Source: Spirulina subsalsa FACHB-351 (GTDB lineage: Bacteria; Cyanobacteriota; Cyanobacteriia; Cyanobacteriales; Spirulinaceae). From it: a DNA stretch of 33,319 nucleotides. Below, one piece after another: positions 14,200 through 25,571 of the stretch. Position 1 is the first letter of the stretch. Each line of letters starts with the position of its first letter. The notes below the pieces were generated by a model that had not been told where the DNA came from, ran no database searches, and was given only the letters and a program-made list of their open reading frames with translations. Location: positions 1 to 33,319 of the forward strand of contig NZ_JAIHOM010000055.1 of assembly GCF_026130165.1 (NCBI RefSeq), read 5' to 3'. Made by a program: the position numbers and the translations under genes.

Positions 14200-15135
14200 A
14201 TGTCGCTCAAATCGTCGTTATTAGTGTTGACCAGTGGTTGTCTCGTTTGGGGTTGGGGTACCAGTGCTATTGCTGGTACATTTTACTCCATGTCAGTTTT
14301 AGGTATTTTTCCCACTCAAATGAGGGTCAATTATGGAGATAATCTCTATAATGAAAGCCTCATTTTTCAACTTGATGAAACGGGAAATGTGACGCTTAAA
14401 CTTTATGGCAGTTGCACTTATTATGGGATGCCTTTCTTTCCCAACTGTGAACAGATTGGTTATGGTGATACTTTTGCCGTAAATGATCAAGGTCAGGGGA
14501 TTTTTAATGGTTTACCGATGCCGAATCCAGCCCAAGCTTATTTTAGCCCCGGCAGTGAGGCAATGCCGCAACTAATCGGCGCAGGTTTAGCCACGGATCT
14601 AAATAATCAGGGCTTAGTGACGTTTAATGTGGGGAATAATATTGTCCCATTTGCTGATTTTACGGGCTACAATACTCCACAAAATACTACAGCTTACTTA
14701 TGGAATAGTCAAAACAATAGCTGGCTAAATTTAGGGCAAGGAAAAGCTTTTGGGGTCAATGATTCCGGTCAGGTGGTGGGGAGTTTTGGGCTATGGGATA
14801 ATGGGGAGTTAACGACTCTTGCCATGGTGAATAATGCCGTAGTCAACAAGGGATATAATATGCCGATTCAAGGAAATTACGACATTAAACAACTGCGAGC
14901 CATTAATAATCAAGGGCAAATTGTCGCCCTAGCCGAGGGGCCTTTGGGAACGCCGCAAATTGTCCTATTAAACCCCTTCACTCCTTCAGAACCTAATCCT
15001 GAATCGGGGAATGATGGGATAGTAAATCCTGACCCCAATCGAGTCCCAGAACCGAGTTTTCTGCTGGGTTTGTTGGGGATAAGTTTATGGGAATTCTGGC
15101 AAGGGTTGCGGCTTAAAGTTAAAGCGCTAGGGTAA
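14200..15135 (+). CDS. PEP-CTERM domain protein with HAF-like repeats
   Basis: A 311-residue exported protein. Residues 1-25 form a signal peptide ending TSAIAG. The C-terminus has the PEP-CTERM sorting signal: VPEPS at 282-286, a hydrophobic stretch (FLLGLLGISLW) and basic residues (RLKVK), so an exosortase should anchor or release it at the outer surface. The middle has repeated VNDQGQGIFNG, VNDSGQVVGSFG and INNQGQIV motifs like those of HAF-repeat proteins, which are predicted beta-propeller-like. Two cysteines in SCTYYGMPFFPNC may form a disulfide. Its end overlaps the end of the kinase gene on the other strand by 17 bp. Function unknown; a surface or extracellular matrix role is inferred. 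Confidence 0.78.
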   Translation: MSLKSSLLVLTSGCLVWGWGTSAIAGTFYSMSVLGIFPTQMRVNYGDNLYNESLIFQLDETGNVTLKLYGSCTYYGMPFFPNCEQIGYGDTFAVNDQGQGIFNGLPMPNPAQAYFSPGSEAMPQLIGAGLATDLNNQGLVTFNVGNNIVPFADFTGYNTPQNTTAYLWNSQNNSWLNLGQGKAFGVNDSGQVVGSFGLWDNGELTTLAMVNNAVVNKGYNMPIQGNYDIKQLRAINNQGQIVALAEGPLGTPQIVLLNPFTPSEPNPESGNDGIVNPDPNRVPEPSFLLGLLGISLWEFWQGLRLKVKALG

Positions 15136-16213
15136 TGGTAAAGGTGCTTCCTTTTCCCTGTTGTGAATCTACGGTAATATGTCCGTGGTGGGCAGTAATA
15201 ATACATTGAGAAAGGTGTAATCCTAAACCACTCCCAGCCCGTGTATGGTCGCCCTGTCGGAAGCGTTGAAAGAGGTATTTTTGCTCTTCGGGACTAATCC
15301 CTTGTCCGGTGTCTTGGACGGCTATTTTCACCTGTTGGGGGGTGTGGTGTAGGGTAATTTCCACACCCCCTTGATCGGTGAATTTAATGGCATTGCCGAT
15401 AATATTAATGAGTACTCGACGCAGTTCTAAAGCATCTCCTGAGATAGTGGGACAGGGTTCTGTTGCCGGGTGATAGGTGAGAGATAAGCCTTTTTCGGTG
15501 GCGAGTGGGGTAAGTTCTTCGACCACTTCTAAGATAATTTGGGTCAGATTAAGGGGGGTAATATTTAACCGCTTGCGTCCCGCTTCATAGCGATATACGT
15601 CTAGTAATGTATTAACTAAGGCGAGTAAATTCTGGTTGCTGCGAATCATGATAGATACCGCTTCCTGCATTTCTGAAGGAAGATCCCCGAAAGCGCCTTG
15701 TTGAAATAACTCTAACATCCGATCGGCGGCCACTAGGGGGGTACGGAGATCATGGGTGAGTCGGGAAACAAAATCCTCTCGTTGCCGGGCGATCGCATCT
15801 CGTTCATCGACACTCTGTTTTAAGCGCAAAAGCGATCGCACCCGAGCTAACAACTCCTCAATTTCCACAGGTTTGCGGATAAAATCATCAGCCCCACTAT
15901 CTAATCCCTGCACTACACTGGCTTGATCGTAGGCCGTGATCAGGAGAATGGGAATATAGGAAAGATGGGGATTTTCCCGAATCCGTCGCGTCACCTCAAA
16001 CCCATCCATTCCCGGCATCATCACGTCTAATAACACTAAATCCGGAGGGTTTTGTTCAATGGAGGCGATCGCATCCTGTCCATTTTCCGCTAACTCACTC
16101 TCATAGCCCTCCTCCTCCAAAATACTTTGAATCAAAAACAAATTATCTGGGGAATCATCCACCACCAAGATTCTATTCACCGCAGGAGTCGGTTCCAATA
16201 AGAAAAAGTTCAT
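15119..16213 (-). CDS. Hybrid response regulator-histidine kinase (REC-HisKA-HATPase)
   Basis: A cytosolic two-component protein without membrane spans. The N-terminal receiver domain (about residues 13-130) has VVDDSPDN, phosphoacceptor Asp63 in LVLLDVMMPGMDG and Lys114 in IRKP. A linker helix leads to the HisKA domain with SRLTHDLRTPL (His154). The ATPase domain has IGNAIKFTD (N box), DTGQGIS (G1), FQRF (F box) and GSGLGLHLS (G2). All catalytic elements are present, so it should autophosphorylate, with the receiver likely controlling its activity from an upstream kinase. I start at ATG 16213 (MNFFLLEPTP); ATG 16249 would add 12 residues that fall in the sequence CCCTTCGACATACTCAGTGC, which looks like an interspersed repeat. 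The signal is unknown. Confidence 0.87.
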   Translation of the reverse strand: MNFFLLEPTPAVNRILVVDDSPDNLFLIQSILEEEGYESELAENGQDAIASIEQNPPDLVLLDVMMPGMDGFEVTRRIRENPHLSYIPILLITAYDQASVVQGLDSGADDFIRKPVEIEELLARVRSLLRLKQSVDERDAIARQREDFVSRLTHDLRTPLVAADRMLELFQQGAFGDLPSEMQEAVSIMIRSNQNLLALVNTLLDVYRYEAGRKRLNITPLNLTQIILEVVEELTPLATEKGLSLTYHPATEPCPTISGDALELRRVLINIIGNAIKFTDQGGVEITLHHTPQQVKIAVQDTGQGISPEEQKYLFQRFRQGDHTRAGSGLGLHLSQCIITAHHGHITVDSQQGKGSTFTITLAL

Positions 16214-16826
16214 CGAAAAATTGGGTTTAAAACCCCGTCCCTTCGACATACTCAGTGCATCGCCTTCTAGGACGGCTTTTTTTGATTCTCAATATCAGTC
16301 TTGAGTATAGCGATGCCTCACTGACCAAAGCTACAAATTTGGCAAGCCAAGTTAGTATAATGCTACAGAACCACTTAGTCCACAGCGATGAAAGCCCGCT
16401 ATTAGTATAGAATCTACCCGACCACCCAACAGCAGCGAAGCCTTGCTCAACGGTTCGGCTGTCTGTAAGTGAGCCTTGAGCGCCCCCCCATAGCCAATCT
16501 CTCCGGAACAGCCCCAAAACCTGAGAAAAACAGAAACCGAAACCCCTTACCTGAAAATCAAGGGGGCAGATCGAAGAGTTGGTGCTAGAATCTGAACAGC
16601 CAATGCGCCCAAGTGTGCCAAAATCGGCAAAAAGAATAGCTCTTATAGGCAGACTCCCCTGCATTTTCCGAGGACTATCTCACCTGGGTCAGTGAAGGAG
16701 CGGTCAAATGAGAGAGATTACTAGACGGATGGGGAAAAACATAATAGAATCCACATCGATTACACTTAAATGAACTTAAAAGTTAGCTAAACACGACATT
16801 ATTAGACTTTGGGGGCTTAGAAACGA
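16214..16826. other. Long non-coding region between the kinase and mreB
   Basis: About 610 bp without a convincing gene. A minus-strand open frame at 16227-16664 has no recognisable domain and unusual Trp/Phe/Ser-rich composition. An imperfect 8-bp stem-loop lies at 16445-16481 (GCTCAA-c-GG / CC-TTGAGC, 20-nt loop). TTGGCAAGCCAA (16339-16350) is a short palindrome. On the minus strand, TGGACT, a 17-bp spacer and TATACT near 16357-16385 could be a promoter for the kinase. The part nearest mreB is AT-rich and should contain the mreB promoter. A small RNA is possible; I recognise no known family. Confidence 0.35.
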
Positions 16827-17870
16827 GTGGGTTTGTTTAGTCGCTTTTCACTATCACGAGATATGGGTATCGACCTCGGTACCGCTAACACCTTGGTGTA
16901 TGTCTCCGGAAAAGGCATTGTTTTACAAGAACCGTCAGTGGTTGCCATTGACCAAGACTTAAAAGTTCCCCTCGCCGTCGGCGAGGATGCCAAAAAAATG
17001 CTCGGTCGGACACCGGGCAACGTAGTTGCTTTACGCCCTTTGCGAGATGGGGTTATTGCGGACTTTGACACAGCCGAATTAATGCTCAAACACTTTATTC
17101 GTCAAGTCCACGAAGGCAGAGCCTTAGTTTCTCCCCGCATTGTCATTGGGATTCCCAGTGGGGTGACAGGGGTCGAACGTCGGGCCGTCATGGAAGCCGC
17201 TTCCCAAGCCGGAGCGCGGGACGTTTATCTCATTGATGAACCCGTAGCCGCCGCCATCGGGGCAGGCTTACCCGTAGCAGAACCCACCGGGAACATGATC
17301 ATCGACATCGGAGGGGGAACTACCGAAGTCGCCGTTCTCAGTTTGCAGGGGACTGTATTAAGCGAATCCGTGAGGGTCGCCGGGGACGAACTCAGCGAGT
17401 CCATCACCCAGTACATGAAAAAAGTTCATAACCTCGTGGTTGGGGAACGGACCGCCGAAGAAATTAAGATTCAAGTCGGTTCGGCCTACCCCACCCATGA
17501 TGATGATGAAGTCACCATGGAAGTCCGAGGCCTGCACCTGCTCTCAGGTCTACCTCGCACCGTCACCATTAAAGCTCCCGAAGTTCGGGAAAGTATGTCC
17601 GAACCTCTGGCCGTGATTGTTGATGCCGTCAAGCGTACCCTAGAACGGACTCCTCCTGAACTCGCCGCCGATATTATTGATCGGGGTATTATGTTAGCCG
17701 GAGGGGGAGCTTTGCTGAAAGGGTTAGACACCCTAATCAGTCATGAAACAGGCATTGTCACCCACGTTGCAGCCGACCCTCTCAGTTGTGTTGTTTTGGG
17801 AACTGGGCGTGTGTTGGAAAACTTCAAGCAACTGGAGCGGGTATTTAGTGGTCGTTCCCGCACTATCTAA
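16827..17870 (+). CDS. mreB: MreB, actin-like rod-shape determining protein
   Basis: MreB polymerises under the cytoplasmic membrane and organises peptidoglycan synthesis. The 347-residue protein has the actin-fold motifs MGIDLGTANTLVYV (phosphate 1), IIDIGGGTTEVAVLS (phosphate 2) and LAGGGALLKGLD (adenosine). The N-terminal GLFSRFSLSRD can serve as the short amphipathic membrane-binding segment. The start is GTG 16827, giving the usual MGLFSRF opening. mreC and mreD follow on the same strand after 147 bp and 18 bp, as in most bacteria. Confidence 0.96.
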   Translation: MGLFSRFSLSRDMGIDLGTANTLVYVSGKGIVLQEPSVVAIDQDLKVPLAVGEDAKKMLGRTPGNVVALRPLRDGVIADFDTAELMLKHFIRQVHEGRALVSPRIVIGIPSGVTGVERRAVMEAASQAGARDVYLIDEPVAAAIGAGLPVAEPTGNMIIDIGGGTTEVAVLSLQGTVLSESVRVAGDELSESITQYMKKVHNLVVGERTAEEIKIQVGSAYPTHDDDEVTMEVRGLHLLSGLPRTVTIKAPEVRESMSEPLAVIVDAVKRTLERTPPELAADIIDRGIMLAGGGALLKGLDTLISHETGIVTHVAADPLSCVVLGTGRVLENFKQLERVFSGRSRTI

Positions 17871-18017
17871 ATGAATGGGTTGTTGACAGTGAAGGTGGGT
17901 CCGGGGGGGGACTGAGAATGAATCGTGAAGGGATCATTCCCCTCGCCCTCATTCTTCCCCCCACCCCAAAACCTGCCCAACTCTCAACACCCAACGATGA
18001 ACTATTAACGATTAACT

Positions 18018-18764
18018 ATGTTTACAGTGCGTCGCTGGTGGGAACGTTACGGGTCACAACTGGTTCTAACGGGGGTCGTCCTAGGGATTGCCCTCTTTGT
18101 TCGTCAGACCCAAGGGGCTCTAGTATCAGAATTGTACTATCAAATTGTTCGACCCTTCCAAACAGGGCCTCGTCCAGAGGAAGCCTGGTCTAATGCCCGT
18201 GTTGAGGAGCTAGAAGCCCAAGTTGAGGAACTCACAGAGCAAAACCAAATGCTGAAAAACCAACTGGGTTATGTTCAGCAGCGCCCCACTAATGTGATTA
18301 CAGCTCCGATTATTGGTCGCAGTGTCGAACATTGGTGGGAACAAGTTACCTTGGGGCGAGGGAGCAAAGATGGCATCCAAGAGGGCTATATCGTCACCGG
18401 TCCGGGGGGCTTAGTGGGTCGTGTAGTCAAGGTGACACCGAACACCAGTCGAGTGTTATTAGTGAGTGATCCCACCAGTAAAGTAGGCGCTGTAGTCAGT
18501 CGGACTCGTTATATGGGTTTTGTCCGAGGGGAAAGCTCTGATCAAGCCGTGATGGAGTTTTTTGAGAAGGTGCCAGATGTGGAGAAGGGGGATAAGATCG
18601 TGACTTCCCATGTCAGTCATTTATTTCCGGCTGGAATTCCCATTGGGGAAGTAGAATCCGTTGATTTGGAGAAAAGCCCGGCTCCTGAAGTCATTATCCG
18701 CTTAACCACACCGATTCAGTATTTAGAATGGGTGGTGGTTGAACCCTTTGAACCGAAACTCTAA
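18018..18764 (+). CDS. mreC: MreC, rod-shape determining protein
   Basis: MreC links MreB and the PBP2/RodA synthase through its periplasmic part. The 248-residue protein has a short cytosolic start, one membrane span (about residues 13-31), a coiled coil (NARVEELEAQVEELTEQNQM, about 60-90) and the beta-rich MreC domain (VITAPIIGRSVEHWWEQVTL, GPGGLVGRVV, VLLVSDPTSKVGAVVSR, FPAGIPIGEVES). The length is on the short side but complete. The gap to mreB is 147 bp without a recognisable gene. mreD starts 18 bp downstream. Confidence 0.95.
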   Translation: MFTVRRWWERYGSQLVLTGVVLGIALFVRQTQGALVSELYYQIVRPFQTGPRPEEAWSNARVEELEAQVEELTEQNQMLKNQLGYVQQRPTNVITAPIIGRSVEHWWEQVTLGRGSKDGIQEGYIVTGPGGLVGRVVKVTPNTSRVLLVSDPTSKVGAVVSRTRYMGFVRGESSDQAVMEFFEKVPDVEKGDKIVTSHVSHLFPAGIPIGEVESVDLEKSPAPEVIIRLTTPIQYLEWVVVEPFEPKL

Positions 18765-18782
18765 AGGAGGATAACAAGACCT

Positions 18783-19406
18783 GTGGCAAGGATTTTTGAG
18801 GTTTCAGCCCCCATTCGCCAATTGTGTAATTGGCTCATTATTGGCGGGTCTGTGCTGATTTGTTTGATGGTGGTGTTTGCCCGCTTACCCGGAACGGAAC
18901 TCTTAGGCATTCGCCCCAATTGGCTGTTAATTTGGGTAGTAGTTTGGAGTGTCAAGCGGACGGTGTGGCAAGGTGCGATCGCCGGACTCGCTCTCGGTCT
19001 GATTCAAGATGGAATGATAGCCTTAGATACGATTACGTTTTTGGGCGATCCTAACGTTTCTGACCCCAATATAATGCCCATTGATGAAGTATTTGCGATC
19101 TATCCCTCTCACATCCTGAGTCTGGTCATTGTGGGGGTGTTGACCGCTAAAATCCAAAAGCAACGGTATATTCAAGAAGATTTTATTTCCATTGCCCTCA
19201 TTGTCTTTGGTATGGCGGTGATTGCTGAGACAGTGACGGCGATTCAGTACAGTTTAGAAGGAATTCGCGACCTTACCCTAGTTTGGGAAGAACATCAACG
19301 CATTGCCCTGTCCTCGGCCATTCTCAGCAGTTTATGGGCTCCGGTGGTCTATTATCCCCTCAATCGTTGGTGGGAATATATTAATAATATTGAGCAAAAT
19401 TCTTGA
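18783..19406 (+). CDS. mreD: MreD, rod-shape determining membrane protein
   Basis: The 207-residue product has about five hydrophobic spans, including GGSVLICLMVVFARL, WLLIWVVVWSV and AIAGLALGLIQDGM, the latter corresponding to the conserved G-x-x-x-D region of MreD. It is an integral membrane part of the elongasome. Synteny with mreB and mreC fixes the identity, since MreD sequences vary widely. The start is GTG 18783; AGGAGG at 18765-18770 precedes it by 12 nt, somewhat far. Confidence 0.88.
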   Translation: MARIFEVSAPIRQLCNWLIIGGSVLICLMVVFARLPGTELLGIRPNWLLIWVVVWSVKRTVWQGAIAGLALGLIQDGMIALDTITFLGDPNVSDPNIMPIDEVFAIYPSHILSLVIVGVLTAKIQKQRYIQEDFISIALIVFGMAVIAETVTAIQYSLEGIRDLTLVWEEHQRIALSSAILSSLWAPVVYYPLNRWWEYINNIEQNS

Positions 19407-19435
19407 ACAGTGAACAGTAATTAGTGAAATGTGGG

Positions 19436-19470
19436 AATTGATAATTGATAATTGATAATTGATAATTGAT
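19436..19470. repeat. Tandem heptamer AATTGAT, 5 perfect copies
   Basis: Five exact copies of AATTGAT lie between mreD and mtnP, followed by TATTCCC twice. These are short tandemly repeated repetitive heptamers of the kind common in filamentous cyanobacteria. Related arrays lie at 25613-25652 and 27403-27437. Confidence 0.9.
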
Positions 19471-19501
19471 ACCTATTCCCTATTCCCTAGTAATAATTGA
19501 A

Positions 19502-20377
19502 ATGAAAGAAATTAAAATCGGCATTATTGGCGGCAGTGGTCTGTATAAAATGGAGGCTTTACAAGAGGTGGAGGAAATTTATCTCGACACCCCCTTTGGT
19601 AAGCCATCCGATGCGTTCATTGTAGGGACGCTAGAAGGGACACCAGTCGCCTTTTTAGCCCGTCATGGTAGAAACCATCATTTAACCCCCACAGAACTCC
19701 CCTTTCGCGCTAATATTTATGCCATGAAAGAATTAGGGGTAGAGTACCTGATTTCCGCCTCAGCCGTGGGGTCTTTACAAGAAGACATTAAACCTCTAGA
19801 TATGGTGGTGCCAGATCAGTTTATTGACCGCACCCAACAGCGGATTTCCACCTTTTTCGGAGAGGGAATCGTGGCTCATATTGCCTTCGGGGATCCAGTT
19901 TGTTACCGTTTGGCGGGGATCGTCGCCAATGCGGTGGAACGTTTGAGCTTGCCCGAAGTAGCTTTACATCGCGGGGGGACTTATGTTTGTATGGAAGGCC
20001 CAGCGTTTTCCACTAAGGCTGAGTCCAGTCTCTATCGGAGTTGGGGCGCGAGTATTATTGGCATGACTAATTTACAGGAGGCCAAGTTAGCGCGGGAGGC
20101 GGAAATTGCCTATGCGACGTTGGCACTGGTGACGGACTATGATTGCTGGCATCCCGAGCATGATAGTGTCACAGTAGAGATGATTGTGGAGAATTTACAC
20201 CGCAATGCCAGTAATGCTCAACAGGTGATTCAAGAGGTGGTGAAGACGTTGGTCACCCGTCCGCCGGAGTCTGATGCTCATTCGGCTCTCAAGTATGCCA
20301 TTTTAACCCCGTTGGCTCAGGTGCCTGTGGCAACGAAGGAGAAGTTACAGCTGTTATTGGCAAAGTATATTGAATAG
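19502..20377 (+). CDS. mtnP: S-methyl-5'-thioadenosine phosphorylase
   Basis: This enzyme splits methylthioadenosine with phosphate into adenine and methylthioribose-1-phosphate in methionine salvage. The 291-residue protein carries the family motifs [10 protein letters not shown] (phosphate loop), [29 protein letters not shown] and [16 protein letters not shown], and VTDYDCWH with the purine-contacting Asp. ATG 19502 is chosen because the upstream TTG 19466 falls inside the heptamer repeat array. It is the fourth gene in line after mreBCD, but the repeat-filled 95-bp gap makes cotranscription uncertain. Confidence 0.93.
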
Positions 20378-20463: not shown

Positions 20464-20507
20464 ATCTATCCATTCATTCCAACAAACAGCGCAGGAGTAA
20501 CGATTTC

Positions 20508-23500
20508 ATGCAGGCTCAGGTTGCCCACCGTTTTAAAGTCGGACAGTCAATCCTCGACCTGTATCGGGTCAAAACTATCCTCGGGGAAGGGGGATTAGGG
20601 ACGGTTTATCAAGTTCACCATGAGGGCTGGAATCAGGATTTAATTTTGAAAGTCCCTCATCCCGATGTGTTGGCTGGCGTAGGTGGATTAGAAAGTTTGC
20701 AATATGCAACGGGACAGTGGATAGATTTGGGGTTACACCCCCATCTGGTGAGTTGTCTTTATGGTCGGGTCTTGGAGAATCACCCTCTGATTTTCACAGA
20801 GGCGATCGCAGGAGGAACCCTAGAACAGTGGATTGCTCAGGGCAGGCTTTATCATGGGGGCAATACGGCAGCCCTGAAACGGATTTTAGATATTGCGATT
20901 CAGTGCGCTTGGGCTTTGGATTATGCCCACGGTAAGGGCTTAAAGCACCAAAATTTTAAGCCGAGTAATGTATTGTTAACCTCCCAAGGAACGGTTAAGG
21001 TGACGGATTGGGGCTGGGGCAATCTGCGTTCACACAGCGTTCGGGAGGAAACGGGACAGGGGAGAAATGTCCTGTGGAATCCTTTAGATCGGCGGGCGAA
21101 TGAGGAAAAGTTTACCCTCACCCCTTGGGGCGGTTGGACTCCGGCCTATTGTTCCCCGGAACAGGAACGGGGGGAAGCGATTCATCACCCAACGGATTTC
21201 TGGAGTTGGGGGTTAATGGTGCTGGAAATGTTCCAAGGGGGACGGAATTGGAATCGGGGAGCGATCGCCTCTCATCTGCTCAATCAATATCTCCAAACCA
21301 CGGCCCCTTCCCATTTACCTCTGATGCCCGAGGGCTTGGTGCATCTACTGCGCCATTGTTTTCAAGAATATCCCGGCGATCGCCCCTATCGCTTCCAAGA
21401 GGTCGCCGGACAACTCATGGGGATTTATCAAGAGGTAATCGGCACATCCTACCCCCGTCAAGCACTAAACGCCGAACCCCTCGCCGAACACCTAAACAAC
21501 CGCGCCCTCGCCCTATTAGACTTAGGGGAAACGGCCGAAGCCTTGCAGCTATGGGATCGAGCCTTACGCCATCAGCCCGGACACCCAGAATCGGTTTACA
21601 ATTGTGGGCTTTTATTATGGCGAATGCGTCAGATTACCGATGCCACTTTACTCGAAGAACTGGCAAAAACCTTGCCCCCCCGAGGATCTTGGTTAAATAC
21701 CTATCTCTGGGGCTGCATCCATTGGGAACGGGATGATTGTGAAAAGGCCTTGCAGTTGTGGGGGAAAATTGGGGAACCGGTGCCGGAAGAAGTGGCCAAC
21801 AGCATCGCCCAAGCGCAAAACCGTCTCTCTCAGTCCAAGCGCCTTTGTCCGACTCCCTTGGGGCAAGTGCGCGGCCAGAGTAATCCGACCCAAGTGAATG
21901 CGGTCTGTTTTAGCCAAGATGGACGCTATGGACTGGCGGGGAAACAGGATGGCACGATGGAACTGTGGGATTTTCAGACCCATCAACGGCACGTTTTCGC
22001 TGGAGAGGTGGGGGAAGCGGTGCAAGGGGTGTCCATTACGCCAGATAATCGTTATGTGGTGTCTGTGGGGTCAAAAATGTTACCTCCCCCCCCAGATCAC
22101 CCGGCCTATCCTCGCCAGTTTATCCCGGTGATTACCTTGAAGGTGTGGAGTTTAATCAGTGGGAAAGGGCTGTGTATGTTTGAGGTGCCGGCCACTCCTT
22201 TGGAAGAACAGGTCAGCCGTCGGGGAGAATTGCCCCCCGGTGAAGTGGCGGAAATTGGCGAAGTTTTGGCGACTTTTCCCCCTTCTACTACCCTCCCGCC
22301 CACTCAGGTCTTAGCGGCCAGCGCCGATGGGCGTTATGAACTGTGGCAAGACTCCCTGACCTTAACCTTGGTGGAAGTAGCCACGGGGCAAACTTTGTAT
22401 ATGAGCCAACTGAATGGCGATCGCATTCTCCTCACTCCTCAAGGTCGCTATGCCCTCACCGTAGGGGAAACCATTAAACTCTGGAAACTGGAAACCGGGC
22501 AATGTGTACGGGAGTTCCACTGTCAAGCCATGCAGCAAAATGCCGTCTGTATTTTCCCCAACGGCCGTTATTTCATCGCCGCCACAGTGGACTACAACCT
22601 AGAAATTTGGTCCCTAGCCACCGGGCGCTGTTTACGCACCCTGAAAACCGACCGCACCCACATCACCGCCCTGACCTTAAGCACCGATGGTCGCTATCTG
22701 GTCACGGCCGGACAATCCCTCAAACTCTGGTCTGTGGAAACTGGGCGCTGTTTACGCACCTTTAGCTTTCAAGATAGCGGCCAAACCGTCGCCATTAGTC
22801 CCGATGGCCACTATGCTCTAGTGGGAGGGATGGGGGTACAACTGTGGCAAATTAACTGTTACAACCCCGCTCCCCTTGCCCCCTTGCGCCTTTGCACAGT
22901 TCACCCCACGGCGAACTTGCTCTCAGACCCGGAAATCTATGAACAGGAACTCGCCCAAGCTAAACGGGCTTTTGGACAGGGGGACACCTTGACCGCCGTT
23001 CAGTGTTTGCGTCGGGCGCGCTCTCTGCGAGGCTACCGTCAAGAATCTCGTTCCCTCGCCCTCTGGACAGAACTCTACACCCGTCTGCCTCGGGGGCCGC
23101 TCCAAGATGCTTGGGAAGCCTTCACGCTGACAGGACATTATAAAGCCATGACCACGGTGGCGTTTAGTGCTGATAGTCAATGGTTGGTATCCGGGAGTAG
23201 CGATCGCACCGTCAAACTCTGGAATGTCAACACCGGAGAAGCCAGCCGTCAGTTTTACCAAATGGGGCAAGAAGCCATCACCATCGTCCAATTTAGCCCC
23301 AATGGGAATAATATTTTTGCCGGAACCAGCGCGGGCAAAGTGCATATTTGGGACATCACCACGGGCGACTGTCTCTATACCCTCACCGTAGACTCCCAAG
23401 GCATCACCGCCCTCGCCGTCAGCCCCGATGGTCTGTATCTGATGACGGGTGGCTATCAGGGGCTGGTGCAACTGTGGGAAATTGCCACCGGGCGCTGTTT

Positions 23501-25571
23501 ACGCACCTTTAGCGGCCACCAAAGCCCCATCACAGCCGTTCAATTTAGCCCCGATGGTCAATACTGTATATCCAGTGAAGCCGGAACCAGCCTCGCCCAT
23601 CAAGGCTATCCCAACCAAGCCACCACTTCCCCCACCCCCCAAGCTGACGGTTCCGTTGCCCTGGCCCTACTCACCCCCACCACCTTGGGGAATTGGCAAT
23701 ACTGGCGAATTGCCACAGGGGAATCTTTACAAACGGTGTCTGGTCTTCGTTCTGGCCTAACTTCCGTCACCTTTAGCCCCGATGGCAACTATGTAGTCTC
23801 CGCCAGCACGGACCACACCCTATCGGTTTGGGCGGTGCGCGTAGGGCGGAAAATTCGCACCCTCTATGGTCATACCGATATTGTGACGGCCGTTGCTTTT
23901 AGCCCAGATGGTCATTATTTACTCTCCGGTAGCTTAGACCAAACCCTGCGCCTCTGGAACGCCACTACTGGACTTTGTTTGCGCACCTTTGAAGAACCCT
24001 CCCCGGTGTTAAGTGTGGCTTTTAGTCGGGATGGCCGCTATGCTGTGGCCGCTCGTCAAGATGGCACGGGTCAACTGTGGATGTTAGATTGGGATTTAAT
24101 CGAACAACCCCGCTCCGATTGGGACGAACGGGCTAGACCCTATTTAGAGACGTTCTTAACCCTCCATCGGCCCTACGCTGGGGATTTACCTGAAGAATTG
24201 CAGTCTGATCTCAAGCCATCCCGTCGGGTTTATCAGCGTCCTGTAGGCTTTCTAGGGCTGTTATTTGTTATAGCTTGGGCTTGTACGGCCTTGGCGACGG
24301 AAGTATTTTCTGAGTGGGCTATCAATGCGGGTTTATTGGCTTTGGGCATGGCGGGCAGTGTGGCGGGGTATTTCTTCAGTCGGCAAGTGGGCAATCCAAC
24401 GTTACAACTGGGTTCCCTCTTTGGCACCGGGATTATGTTAACGGTTGCTTTGATGAATGCCTCGGAAGGGTGGGGGGCTCCGGCGGCGGCTTTATTGGGC
24501 GCGATCGCCGCCTATGTGTTCACGGGCTTAGTTTTAGGGATTAAAAGCTCGAATCCCGCCTCTGTAGTGCCAGGGATTCGGGCTTGTCAAGAACTCAAAG
24601 CCGAGTTTGGCAAAGCCTCCACCGCTTTGATTCTCTTAAGTACCCTCAGCGGGGGAATGGTGGTGGAATTATTGTTAGATCGCGGAACACTCGCCCCGTC
24701 TCATTGTGCCGTGATCTTATTGGTCATCTTAGGGGTCTTGATTTATCAAGGGGGGAAAAGACTACGCCAACAAGGGAAAATATCCCTGTCCAAAGTTGGC
24801 ATCACCCTACTCTGTTTTGTCTTAGCCCTGCTCTCCTTGGGCAAATGGGCGCTGCCCAGTGCTGTGGGGATCACCCCCGCCGATGTGTGCCACAATCTCA
24901 CCTTCACTCAAGATTATCTCGACCGGGCTGGCCGTCCTAATGCCAATGTCACCCTATACTATGAAACCCCAGGGGGCATTCTTCAATCCCGGGTGTTGCC
25001 CATTCTTCAGTGTGCGGTGGAGAACAATAACCTGCCGTTAGTGCAGTTATTATTACAGCGAGGGGCAGATCCCAATCAAGGGAATCCCCAAGGAATGACA
25101 GCCCTACATACCAGCGTAGAACAGAATAATCTGGAATTGACTCAAGTACTGCTTGATGGGGGCGCGAAGGTGAATGTTGTAGACCAGAATCAGCAATCCC
25201 CTTTGTATTTGGTTCAGGATAATGCGATCGCCCAACTTCTAATCCAACGGGGGGCAGATGTTAACCTCAACACCCCCAATGGTTCTATCCTCCACCGAGC
25301 CATTGCGGCCCGGAACGCCGAACGGGTGAAAATGCTCATCGAAGCCGGAGCCAGTCCCAACGTCGTTTGTGCAGAATGTCTCGGGACTACCCCCCTCCAT
25401 GCCGCTATCCGCATGAACCGTCAGGACTTACTCGATTTGGTTCTCACTCCAGAAGCAGATTTTACCATCAAAGACCAAGACGGCAATATCCCCCTTGCTC
25501 TGGCCACCAAAACCGGACGCACTGACATGGTGCAACTCCTGCTTAGTCGCGGCGCTCCCCCTTTAGAATAG
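20508..25571 (+). CDS. Giant pseudokinase-TPR-WD40-transmembrane-ankyrin repeat protein
   Basis: A 1687-residue multidomain protein. Residues 20-305 are a Hanks-type Ser/Thr kinase fold with GEGGLGTV (26-33), Lys48 in LILKV and DWG (167-169), but the catalytic HRD is HQN (147-149, GLKHQNFKPSN). The proton-accepting Asp is missing, so it is probably a pseudokinase. A TPR-like hairpin follows (about 323-360). Two WD40 blocks, about 460-795 and 875-1195, have many SPDG and TVKLW-type motifs and are joined by a helical linker. Five to seven hydrophobic spans lie at about 1245-1450, then a short extracytoplasmic or cytosolic linker and an ankyrin domain (about 1494-1685; LLLQRGADPN, LLDGGAKVN, LIQRGADVN, LIEAGASPN). 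ATG 20508 has AGGAG 10 nt upstream. It stands alone in its transcription unit. A scaffold or sensor role is inferred. Confidence 0.85.
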   Translation: MQAQVAHRFKVGQSILDLYRVKTILGEGGLGTVYQVHHEGWNQDLILKVPHPDVLAGVGGLESLQYATGQWIDLGLHPHLVSCLYGRVLENHPLIFTEAIAGGTLEQWIAQGRLYHGGNTAALKRILDIAIQCAWALDYAHGKGLKHQNFKPSNVLLTSQGTVKVTDWGWGNLRSHSVREETGQGRNVLWNPLDRRANEEKFTLTPWGGWTPAYCSPEQERGEAIHHPTDFWSWGLMVLEMFQGGRNWNRGAIASHLLNQYLQTTAPSHLPLMPEGLVHLLRHCFQEYPGDRPYRFQEVAGQLMGIYQEVIGTSYPRQALNAEPLAEHLNNRALALLDLGETAEALQLWDRALRHQPGHPESVYNCGLLLWRMRQITDATLLEELAKTLPPRGSWLNTYLWGCIHWERDDCEKALQLWGKIGEPVPEEVANSIAQAQNRLSQSKRLCPTPLGQVRGQSNPTQVNAVCFSQDGRYGLAGKQDGTMELWDFQTHQRHVFAGEVGEAVQGVSITPDNRYVVSVGSKMLPPPPDHPAYPRQFIPVITLKVWSLISGKGLCMFEVPATPLEEQVSRRGELPPGEVAEIGEVLATFPPSTTLPPTQVLAASADGRYELWQDSLTLTLVEVATGQTLYMSQLNGDRILLTPQGRYALTVGETIKLWKLETGQCVREFHCQAMQQNAVCIFPNGRYFIAATVDYNLEIWSLATGRCLRTLKTDRTHITALTLSTDGRYLVTAGQSLKLWSVETGRCLRTFSFQDSGQTVAISPDGHYALVGGMGVQLWQINCYNPAPLAPLRLCTVHPTANLLSDPEIYEQELAQAKRAFGQGDTLTAVQCLRRARSLRGYRQESRSLALWTELYTRLPRGPLQDAWEAFTLTGHYKAMTTVAFSADSQWLVSGSSDRTVKLWNVNTGEASRQFYQMGQEAITIVQFSPNGNNIFAGTSAGKVHIWDITTGDCLYTLTVDSQGITALAVSPDGLYLMTGGYQGLVQLWEIATGRCLRTFSGHQSPITAVQFSPDGQYCISSEAGTSLAHQGYPNQATTSPTPQADGSVALALLTPTTLGNWQYWRIATGESLQTVSGLRSGLTSVTFSPDGNYVVSASTDHTLSVWAVRVGRKIRTLYGHTDIVTAVAFSPDGHYLLSGSLDQTLRLWNATTGLCLRTFEEPSPVLSVAFSRDGRYAVAARQDGTGQLWMLDWDLIEQPRSDWDERARPYLETFLTLHRPYAGDLPEELQSDLKPSRRVYQRPVGFLGLLFVIAWACTALATEVFSEWAINAGLLALGMAGSVAGYFFSRQVGNPTLQLGSLFGTGIMLTVALMNASEGWGAPAAALLGAIAAYVFTGLVLGIKSSNPASVVPGIRACQELKAEFGKASTALILLSTLSGGMVVELLLDRGTLAPSHCAVILLVILGVLIYQGGKRLRQQGKISLSKVGITLLCFVLALLSLGKWALPSAVGITPADVCHNLTFTQDYLDRAGRPNANVTLYYETPGGILQSRVLPILQCAVENNNLPLVQLLLQRGADPNQGNPQGMTALHTSVEQNNLELTQVLLDGGAKVNVVDQNQQSPLYLVQDNAIAQLLIQRGADVNLNTPNGSILHRAIAARNAERVKMLIEAGASPNVVCAECLGTTPLHAAIRMNRQDLLDLVLTPEADFTIKDQDGNIPLALATKTGRTDMVQLLLSRGAPPLE

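Follow-up and report, generated by a model that had tools for sequence, protein, structure and literature searches.

A membrane-spanning pseudokinase with two WD40 propellers and a predicted extracytoplasmic ankyrin domain in Spirulina-type cyanobacteria

Architecture of the gene product

A single gene of Spirulina subsalsa FACHB-351 encodes a chain in which a kinase domain without its catalytic Asp is followed by a TPR, two WD40 propellers, a stretch of predicted membrane helices and a set of ankyrin repeats. On balance, we take this protein to be a transmembrane receptor or scaffold in which an external ankyrin sensor would be coupled to a cytoplasmic pseudokinase-propeller platform. The gene lies in the window, by which we mean the whole 33,319-nt stretch of DNA analyzed (contig NZ_JAIHOM010000055.1, assembly GCF_026130165.1; the genome is G000 below). 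The features are as follows, with residue numbers in parentheses.

20508 to 25571, forward strand: whole gene, a single open frame (1,687 aa and a stop codon); relatives align with it
20493 to 20497, forward strand: AGGAG, a likely ribosome-binding site 10 bases 5′ of the ATG at 20508 (from the sequence)
20562 to 21389, forward strand: pseudokinase domain (19 to 294), from Pfam Pkinase and the family motif table
20649 to 20651, forward strand: Lys48, the VAIK-type lysine, retained (family motif table)
20946 to 20954, forward strand: HQN (147 to 149) where HRD is expected, the catalytic Asp being replaced by Asn149 (family motif table)
21006 to 21014, forward strand: DWG (167 to 169), metal-binding Asp retained (family motif table)
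21486 to 21581, forward strand: TPR repeat (about 327 to 358), from Pfam TPR_1
21891 to 22850, forward strand: first WD40 propeller (about 462 to 781), from the model and fold search
22926 to 23081, forward strand: three-helix linker between the propellers (about 807 to 858), from the model
23091 to 24098, forward strand: second WD40 propeller (about 862 to 1197), from the model and Pfam
24240 to 24839, forward strand: seven predicted membrane helices (about 1245 to 1444), N-in/C-out by charge, with no Pfam family
24840 to 25019, forward strand: juxtamembrane cap containing Cys1461 and Cys1502; single-pass transmembrane (TM) kinases have a homologous cap
25005 to 25568, forward strand: ankyrin repeats (about 1500 to 1687), predicted to be extracytoplasmic, with a CxxC at 1621 to 1624 (Pfam, model, fold search and alignment)

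The Pkinase match at residues 19 to 294 scored 82.5 bits (Pfam cut-off, 31.7), and Pfam also gave one TPR, WD40 and Ank matches in the 1,687-aa protein; no Pfam family was found at an E value of 0.001 in residues 1195 to 1501, which span the membrane stretch. Structure models were built from the window sequence together with related loci. The model of residues 441 to 1205 (mean pLDDT, 77.9; pTM, 0.50) contained two tandem propellers of about seven blades each, by a strand count made by eye, with a helical linker. Its best fold match was a highly repetitive propeller and most of the others were multi-propeller proteins, the overall superposition being poor. The model of residues 1195 to 1687 (mean pLDDT, 77.3; pTM, 0.59; moderate in the membrane part, with a pLDDT of about 50 to 86) consisted of seven long helices and then an ankyrin stack, and ankyrins were among the best 50 matches listed in a fold search. 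One of those 50, a receptor construct (6z8n, rank 40, rmsd of 24), spanned the membrane part and is not counted as a fold match. The translation, Pfam matches, models and relatives bear out the joining of kinase, TPR, two WD40 blocks, membrane spans and ankyrin repeats in one chain, which an earlier note had read from the letters of this DNA, and the predicted helices, propellers and ankyrin stack agree with its picture of a membrane-anchored protein with a large interaction surface.

Distribution of the architecture

A search of 99 related genomes detected a relative in the same genus (G001) that aligned over the whole length at 92 to 93% and, within the same family, seven further genomes with long relatives at about 29 to 43%, one of these relatives being split over two contigs. 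With eight relatives so organized, each from a different genome, a chance architecture is excluded. Among 388 genomes of the order, a membrane-to-ankyrin profile that includes the window protein itself gave full-length matches in nine, all from one Spirulina-type family, and partial matches only in 35 others. The combination was unfamiliar to the author of the earlier note, and it is indeed restricted to a single family in this sample. The nine carriers are G000, G001, G002, G004, G006, G008, G010, G011 and G012; all six loci returned by a scan of the genome contigs with a one-peptide pattern were in carriers already found. Frames were intact at 1,512 to 1,712 aa (stop to stop) in eight carriers, and the ninth was on two contigs. 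In a two-gene species tree, the carriers sit in a clade of ten genomes (support, 97/96), the tenth of which, G003, had a partial match only. The three family members outside this clade had either no match (G005 and G007) or a partial match (G009).

State of the kinase domain

A motif alignment of the family confirmed that the window kinase retains its nucleotide (glycine) loop, Lys48 and the Asp of DWG and that HQN replaces HRD, as the earlier note had described, with consequent loss of the catalytic base. Asn154 and the TPAYCSPEQ region are also retained, while the α-C Glu is lost, the position that we take to be its own from the PknB motif being occupied by Ala67; both this position and the catalytic Asp are replaced in both genus members. 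A bacterial pseudokinase is defined by the absence of at least one of the β3 Lys, HRD Asp and DFG Asp, and the window protein falls within this definition through Asn149, with Lys48 and Asp167 kept. The catalytic Asp within HRD that marks an active Hanks-type kinase is thus missing from the window protein and is present in the G008 carrier. The window domain presumably lacks phosphotransfer; an HQN motif with the Lys and DWG kept would not, by itself, exclude weak activity. The genome of the window has 39 Pkinase matches, 37 of them above the cut-off, and the window kinase ranks 34th (80.1 bits). A passage of a 2007 survey of cyanobacterial kinases (PMC2176072) gives 97.2% conservation for the subdomain VIb Asp.

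The G008 carrier has HQD, DFG and an APE-type motif, an intact catalytic set, and is the only one of the nine to retain the Asp. This residue is Asn in G000, G001, G002 and G004 and Arg in G006, G010, G011 and G012. Four carriers (G002, G004, G011 and G012) also have a degraded glycine loop and a deletion from behind DFG to the F helix, which removes the activation segment and APE. The WD40, seven-TM and ankyrin parts remain alignable across the carriers while the kinase motifs vary. The earlier note had allowed that rarity of the HQN change among close homologues would count against its reading, and HQN itself was found in only two of the nine carriers. The objection holds in the letter and not in the spirit, because most carriers (8/9) have lost the Asp. 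The differing replacements (N, R and deletion) hint that the kinase may have been lost by more than one path. A single change is sufficient on the kinase tree, in which branches are long and L154 is scored as degraded; the tree of the non-kinase remainder does not resolve G008, and the two-gene species tree has a polytomy at the corresponding node.

Comparison of the window gene with that of G001 gave a dN of 0.037 and a dS of 0.56 for the pseudokinase, a dN/dS of 0.066 (bootstrap 5 to 95%, 0.045 to 0.097), against 0.080 for the whole protein. The pseudokinase is under strong purifying selection in the window's genus, indicating that the dead kinase is kept by selection there.

The earlier note had proposed a nucleotide-binding switch controlling a large interaction surface. 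In concrete terms, the pseudokinase would still bind ATP, and binding would govern what assembles on the WD40 and ankyrin parts. The intact glycine loop, Lys48, Asn154 and DWG Asp of the window protein are consistent with this mechanism, as is purifying selection on the domain, while loss of the α-C Glu position and the state of the four deleted kinases argue against it. Because required features have been lost in other carriers (the Asp in eight, the activation segment, APE and a sound glycine loop in four), a nucleotide switch is unlikely as the conserved function of the family and the proposal is not supported at that level; we consider it improbable overall, a mechanism that could hold in the window's genus only.

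Membrane helices and the side of the ankyrin domain

The protein probably crosses the membrane seven times, as modeled. With an N-in/C-out assignment, the numbers of Lys and Arg residues per loop in the window protein are 4, 1, 4 and 4 inside and 0, 0, 1 and 1 outside. The bias is weaker in some carriers, e.g., 1, 1, 3 and 2 inside and 0, 1, 0 and 2 outside in L045. A hydropathy scan detected seven segments before the ankyrin repeats in seven of the nine carriers; in L042 and L040 it detected six. The same scan flags spurious segments within four ankyrin domains. Cysteines at positions 1461 and 1502 are conserved in all nine carriers and those at 1621 and 1624 in seven; the latter pair is absent from L042 and L044, as is the repeat in question.

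A TM-cap-ankyrin module shared with single-pass kinases

Partial matches to the membrane-to-ankyrin profile were also instructive. Twenty such loci of the order (L105 to L124) were read, drawn from 19 of the 35 partial-match genomes, with G010 contributing an additional, second match. In 19 of the 20, a Ser/Thr kinase having HRD and DFG precedes a TM (weak in L109), the cap and repeats that are of ankyrin type by eye; L110 has the TM and ankyrin only. Pfam was run on three of the single-pass loci and detected Pkinase in all three and ankyrin in two. In 18 of the 20 loci, Lys plus Arg was higher in the 15 residues before the TM than in the 15 after it, the exceptions being L110 and L113 with more after the TM. 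This excess places the ankyrin part of the single-pass kinases outside, if the kinase is cytoplasmic.

Profile-profile comparison (hhalign) of the window-family module with the single-pass module gave a probability of 99.6% and an E value of 1.8e-24, for single-pass proteins that had been found with the carriers' own profile. The window protein shares with these kinases a homologous last TM, cap and first ankyrin repeat, and the cysteine pair is present in most of them. It differs in what comes before: the single-pass proteins have an intact HRD/DFG kinase directly in front of one TM, whereas the window protein has a pseudokinase, TPR, WD40 and seven TM helices. Neither the TPR-WD40 platform nor the six extra helices were seen in the 19 single-pass frames, as judged by eye and, for three of them, with Pfam.

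A profile of the 20 loci was also run against 388 genomes of the class and found further cases outside the order (among L197 to L225, in part). In L201, L203, L205, L206, L211 and L212, the module lies directly behind a TM near the ORF start. A count of 84 of 388 genomes, obtained with the junction profile at an E value of 1e-5, was rejected as a census since it is inflated by generic ankyrin matches. The TM-cap-ankyrin kinases and the ankyrin proteins with a near-start TM possibly form an undescribed receptor class.

The cap cysteines were compared in 47 sequences, comprising the 20 single-TM loci, 18 of 30 loci from the class search and the nine carriers; the 12 loci omitted were 2 duplicates and 10 in which no script match began inside the first 30 profile positions. 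The pair was complete in 32 sequences, absent from 13 and reduced to its first cysteine in 2 (Fisher P = 7e-10, with sequences treated as independent). In L119, one of the two first-only cases, a nearby Cys has been shifted by the alignment. Cys1461 and Cys1502 are presumably joined by a disulphide.

Together, the charge pattern, the number of helices, the homologous single-pass module, the ORFs with a TM near their start and the cap cysteines are indirect evidence for a probable extracytoplasmic location of the ankyrin domain, across the membrane from the kinase and the propellers. Ankyrin repeats are usually intracellular. This general rule, the six hydropathy segments of two carriers and the weak charge bias of some are what could be expected of a membrane-anchored scaffold that has an even number of spans and keeps all of its parts, ankyrin included, in the cytoplasm. 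The seven helices of the model and the charge pattern of the window protein point the other way, as do the cysteine pairs of the cap, the CxxC and the occurrence of a homologous module behind the single TM of kinases, and an all-cytoplasmic arrangement is, in our view, improbable.

Relatives of the kinase-TPR block

A profile built with the window protein among its members detected the kinase-TPR block at an E value of 1e-60 in 20 of 388 genomes of the order, the nine carriers included. Outside the carrier genes, 14 further rows were read; they come from the 11 remaining genomes and, in the case of G011, from a second gene. The catalytic Asp is kept in 11 of these and lost in 2 (G048 and G070), with 1 row lacking coverage; most of the relatives retain HQD or HKD plus DFG. 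In L154, among the 11 rows keeping the Asp, the Lys and the DFG Asp are both lost. BLASTP of the window protein against L051 (G054) gave 37% over residues 9 to 1004 (E value, 0). A homologous kinase-TPR block followed by WD40 defines a cyanobacterial kinase-TPR-WD40 family to which the window protein belongs, and we infer that its ancestor was an active kinase-TPR-WD40 protein. No full membrane module was found in the other 11 genomes by profile search; several of the rows are truncated by contig ends. Five tails were scanned with Pfam: FHA and a second kinase were found in L148, L154 and L049, GUN4 in L050 and nothing in L149.

Some side observations were made on these and other kinases. A second kinase was detected by profile in L150, and both L154 and L049 combine a degraded first kinase with a second Pkinase domain. 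Seven other Pkinase matches of G000 (L053 to L059) lie in frames of 1,779 to 2,136 aa, five of which match the window protein in the kinase domain only and two not at all at an E value of 1e-5.

Retention of Lys48, Asn154, the DWG Asp and the TPAYCSPEQ region, together with the complete catalytic set of the G008 carrier, could indicate an active atypical kinase in which slow phosphotransfer is supported by Asn149 or by some other residue, as in some kinases once classed as pseudokinases. Replacement of both the catalytic Asp and the α-C Glu position in both genus members and loss of the Asp in eight of nine carriers oppose this explanation, which seems slightly less probable still than an all-cytoplasmic protein. 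A decaying relic, losing its function piecewise from the kinase onward, would account for the loss of kinase motifs across carriers and for the one genome in ten of the carrying clade without a full match, but it is largely refuted by a dN/dS of 0.03 to 0.11 in every stretch between the genus members and by the long intact frames, and is very improbable.

Proposed function and comparison with described systems

For a transmembrane receptor or scaffold, the following mechanism is offered as a proposal. The external ankyrin domain (periplasmic or thylakoid-lumenal), held by the disulphide-bonded cap, would bind a ligand or partner protein, and the seven membrane helices would carry the change to the cytoplasmic side. 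There, a platform made of the non-catalytic kinase fold, the TPR and the two propellers would gather signaling partners, possibly including other Ser/Thr kinases, of which this cell has many. More tentatively, we suggest that cyanobacteria possess a receptor class in which an external ankyrin sensor, mostly disulphide capped, drives a Ser/Thr kinase in many members. The Spirulina family may have joined this module via seven helices to a kinase-propeller platform in which the kinase then died in most lineages, leaving a pure scaffold receptor, with one relative still having an intact catalytic set. Living intermediates of pseudokinase evolution are valuable, and here nine proteins of one architecture span intact to deleted kinases. 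As these homologues run from an intact set to an excised activation segment with the rest kept, the switch from enzyme to scaffold is directly testable. Because single-pass kinases of cyanobacteria from within the order and beyond it share the module, there may be a receptor class here that is not named in the searchable text of the 2007 survey (PMC2176072).

Several of the components have precedents. Kinase-WD40 fusions, multi-span kinases, membrane kinases bearing repeats and bacterial pseudokinases are already known, according to passages of four papers (PMC2176072, PMC5587647, PMC11032199 and PMC12599244). The 2007 survey (PMC2176072) describes cyanobacterial kinases with WD40 (cbSTKII) and, separately, with membrane spans (cbSTKI-TM); in 13 kinases, the kinase domain is followed by 3 to 6 TM domains. 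Its available text contains neither "ankyrin" nor "ANK." As in cbSTKII, a kinase is followed by WD40 in one chain, to which the window protein adds a TPR; it differs from both groups in that one chain joins a dead kinase to two propellers, seven helices and a tail of ankyrin repeats.

Bacterial pseudokinases have been little studied, as stated in a review available in part (PMC12599244), in the accessible text of which WD40, ankyrin, ANK, TPR and propeller have no mention. The families described there resemble the window protein in missing a residue of the catalytic triad and, in several, in having a TM after the kinase, and ActPs2 has the same Asp-to-Asn change at HRD. In the same account, CP1 pseudokinases come mainly from cyanobacteria and proteobacteria, have no TM and are linked to COG3899. 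The window protein does not belong to CP1, given its seven predicted TM helices; no ATPase domain was found in it by segment scans or among the Pfam families listed (25 of 68).

Passages of PMC11032199 describe membrane Ser/Thr kinases of Planctomycetota with WD40 or TPR arrays and name the ankyrin repeat domain among the kinase-associated domains, so bacterial kinase-ankyrin chains are not new as such. These kinases are mostly single-spanning proteins with mostly periplasmic WD40 or TPR arrays (PMC11032199), whereas the WD40 and TPR parts of the window protein are predicted to be on the kinase side because they are located between the kinase and the membrane part. In the open-access literature, to which the search was largely confined, no description was found of the kinase, WD40, TM and ankyrin combination or of external ankyrin domains of Ser/Thr kinases. 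Identity with an anti-phage kinase (MAD6 or PD-T4-6; NCBIfam and PADLOC) was rejected, as matches were confined to the kinase, ankyrin or WD40 stretches. The MAD6 model scored 72 bits against a cut-off of 460, far from a whole-protein match to a defence model.

Gene neighbourhood

Upstream of the pseudokinase gene are mreB-mreC-mreD (window 16827 to 19403) and then a phosphorylase-superfamily gene, PNP_UDP_1 (four genes, 16827 to 20377). The same four-gene order is kept in G001, where the pseudokinase gene is not beside it, and no mreBCD was found near the pseudokinase gene in the eight other carriers (stretches of 9.8 to 19.9 kb). A conserved functional link was rejected on these grounds, and the gene order in the window seems to reflect either a rearrangement or an effect of the assembly. 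An HNH-type gene, so called from Pfam on the G004 copy only, is directly upstream in five of nine carriers (G001, G002, G004, G011 and G012; L041:6606-7241 and matching places). It is not claimed as a partner because it is on another contig in the remaining four (the window's genome, G006, G008 and G010). Response-regulator or histidine-kinase neighbours in six of nine carriers were of differing types by eye (Pfam on that of the window only) and were taken as chance. In the window, 15122 to 16249 (reverse strand), a few kilobases from the pseudokinase gene, encodes a histidine kinase that begins with a response regulator receiver domain.
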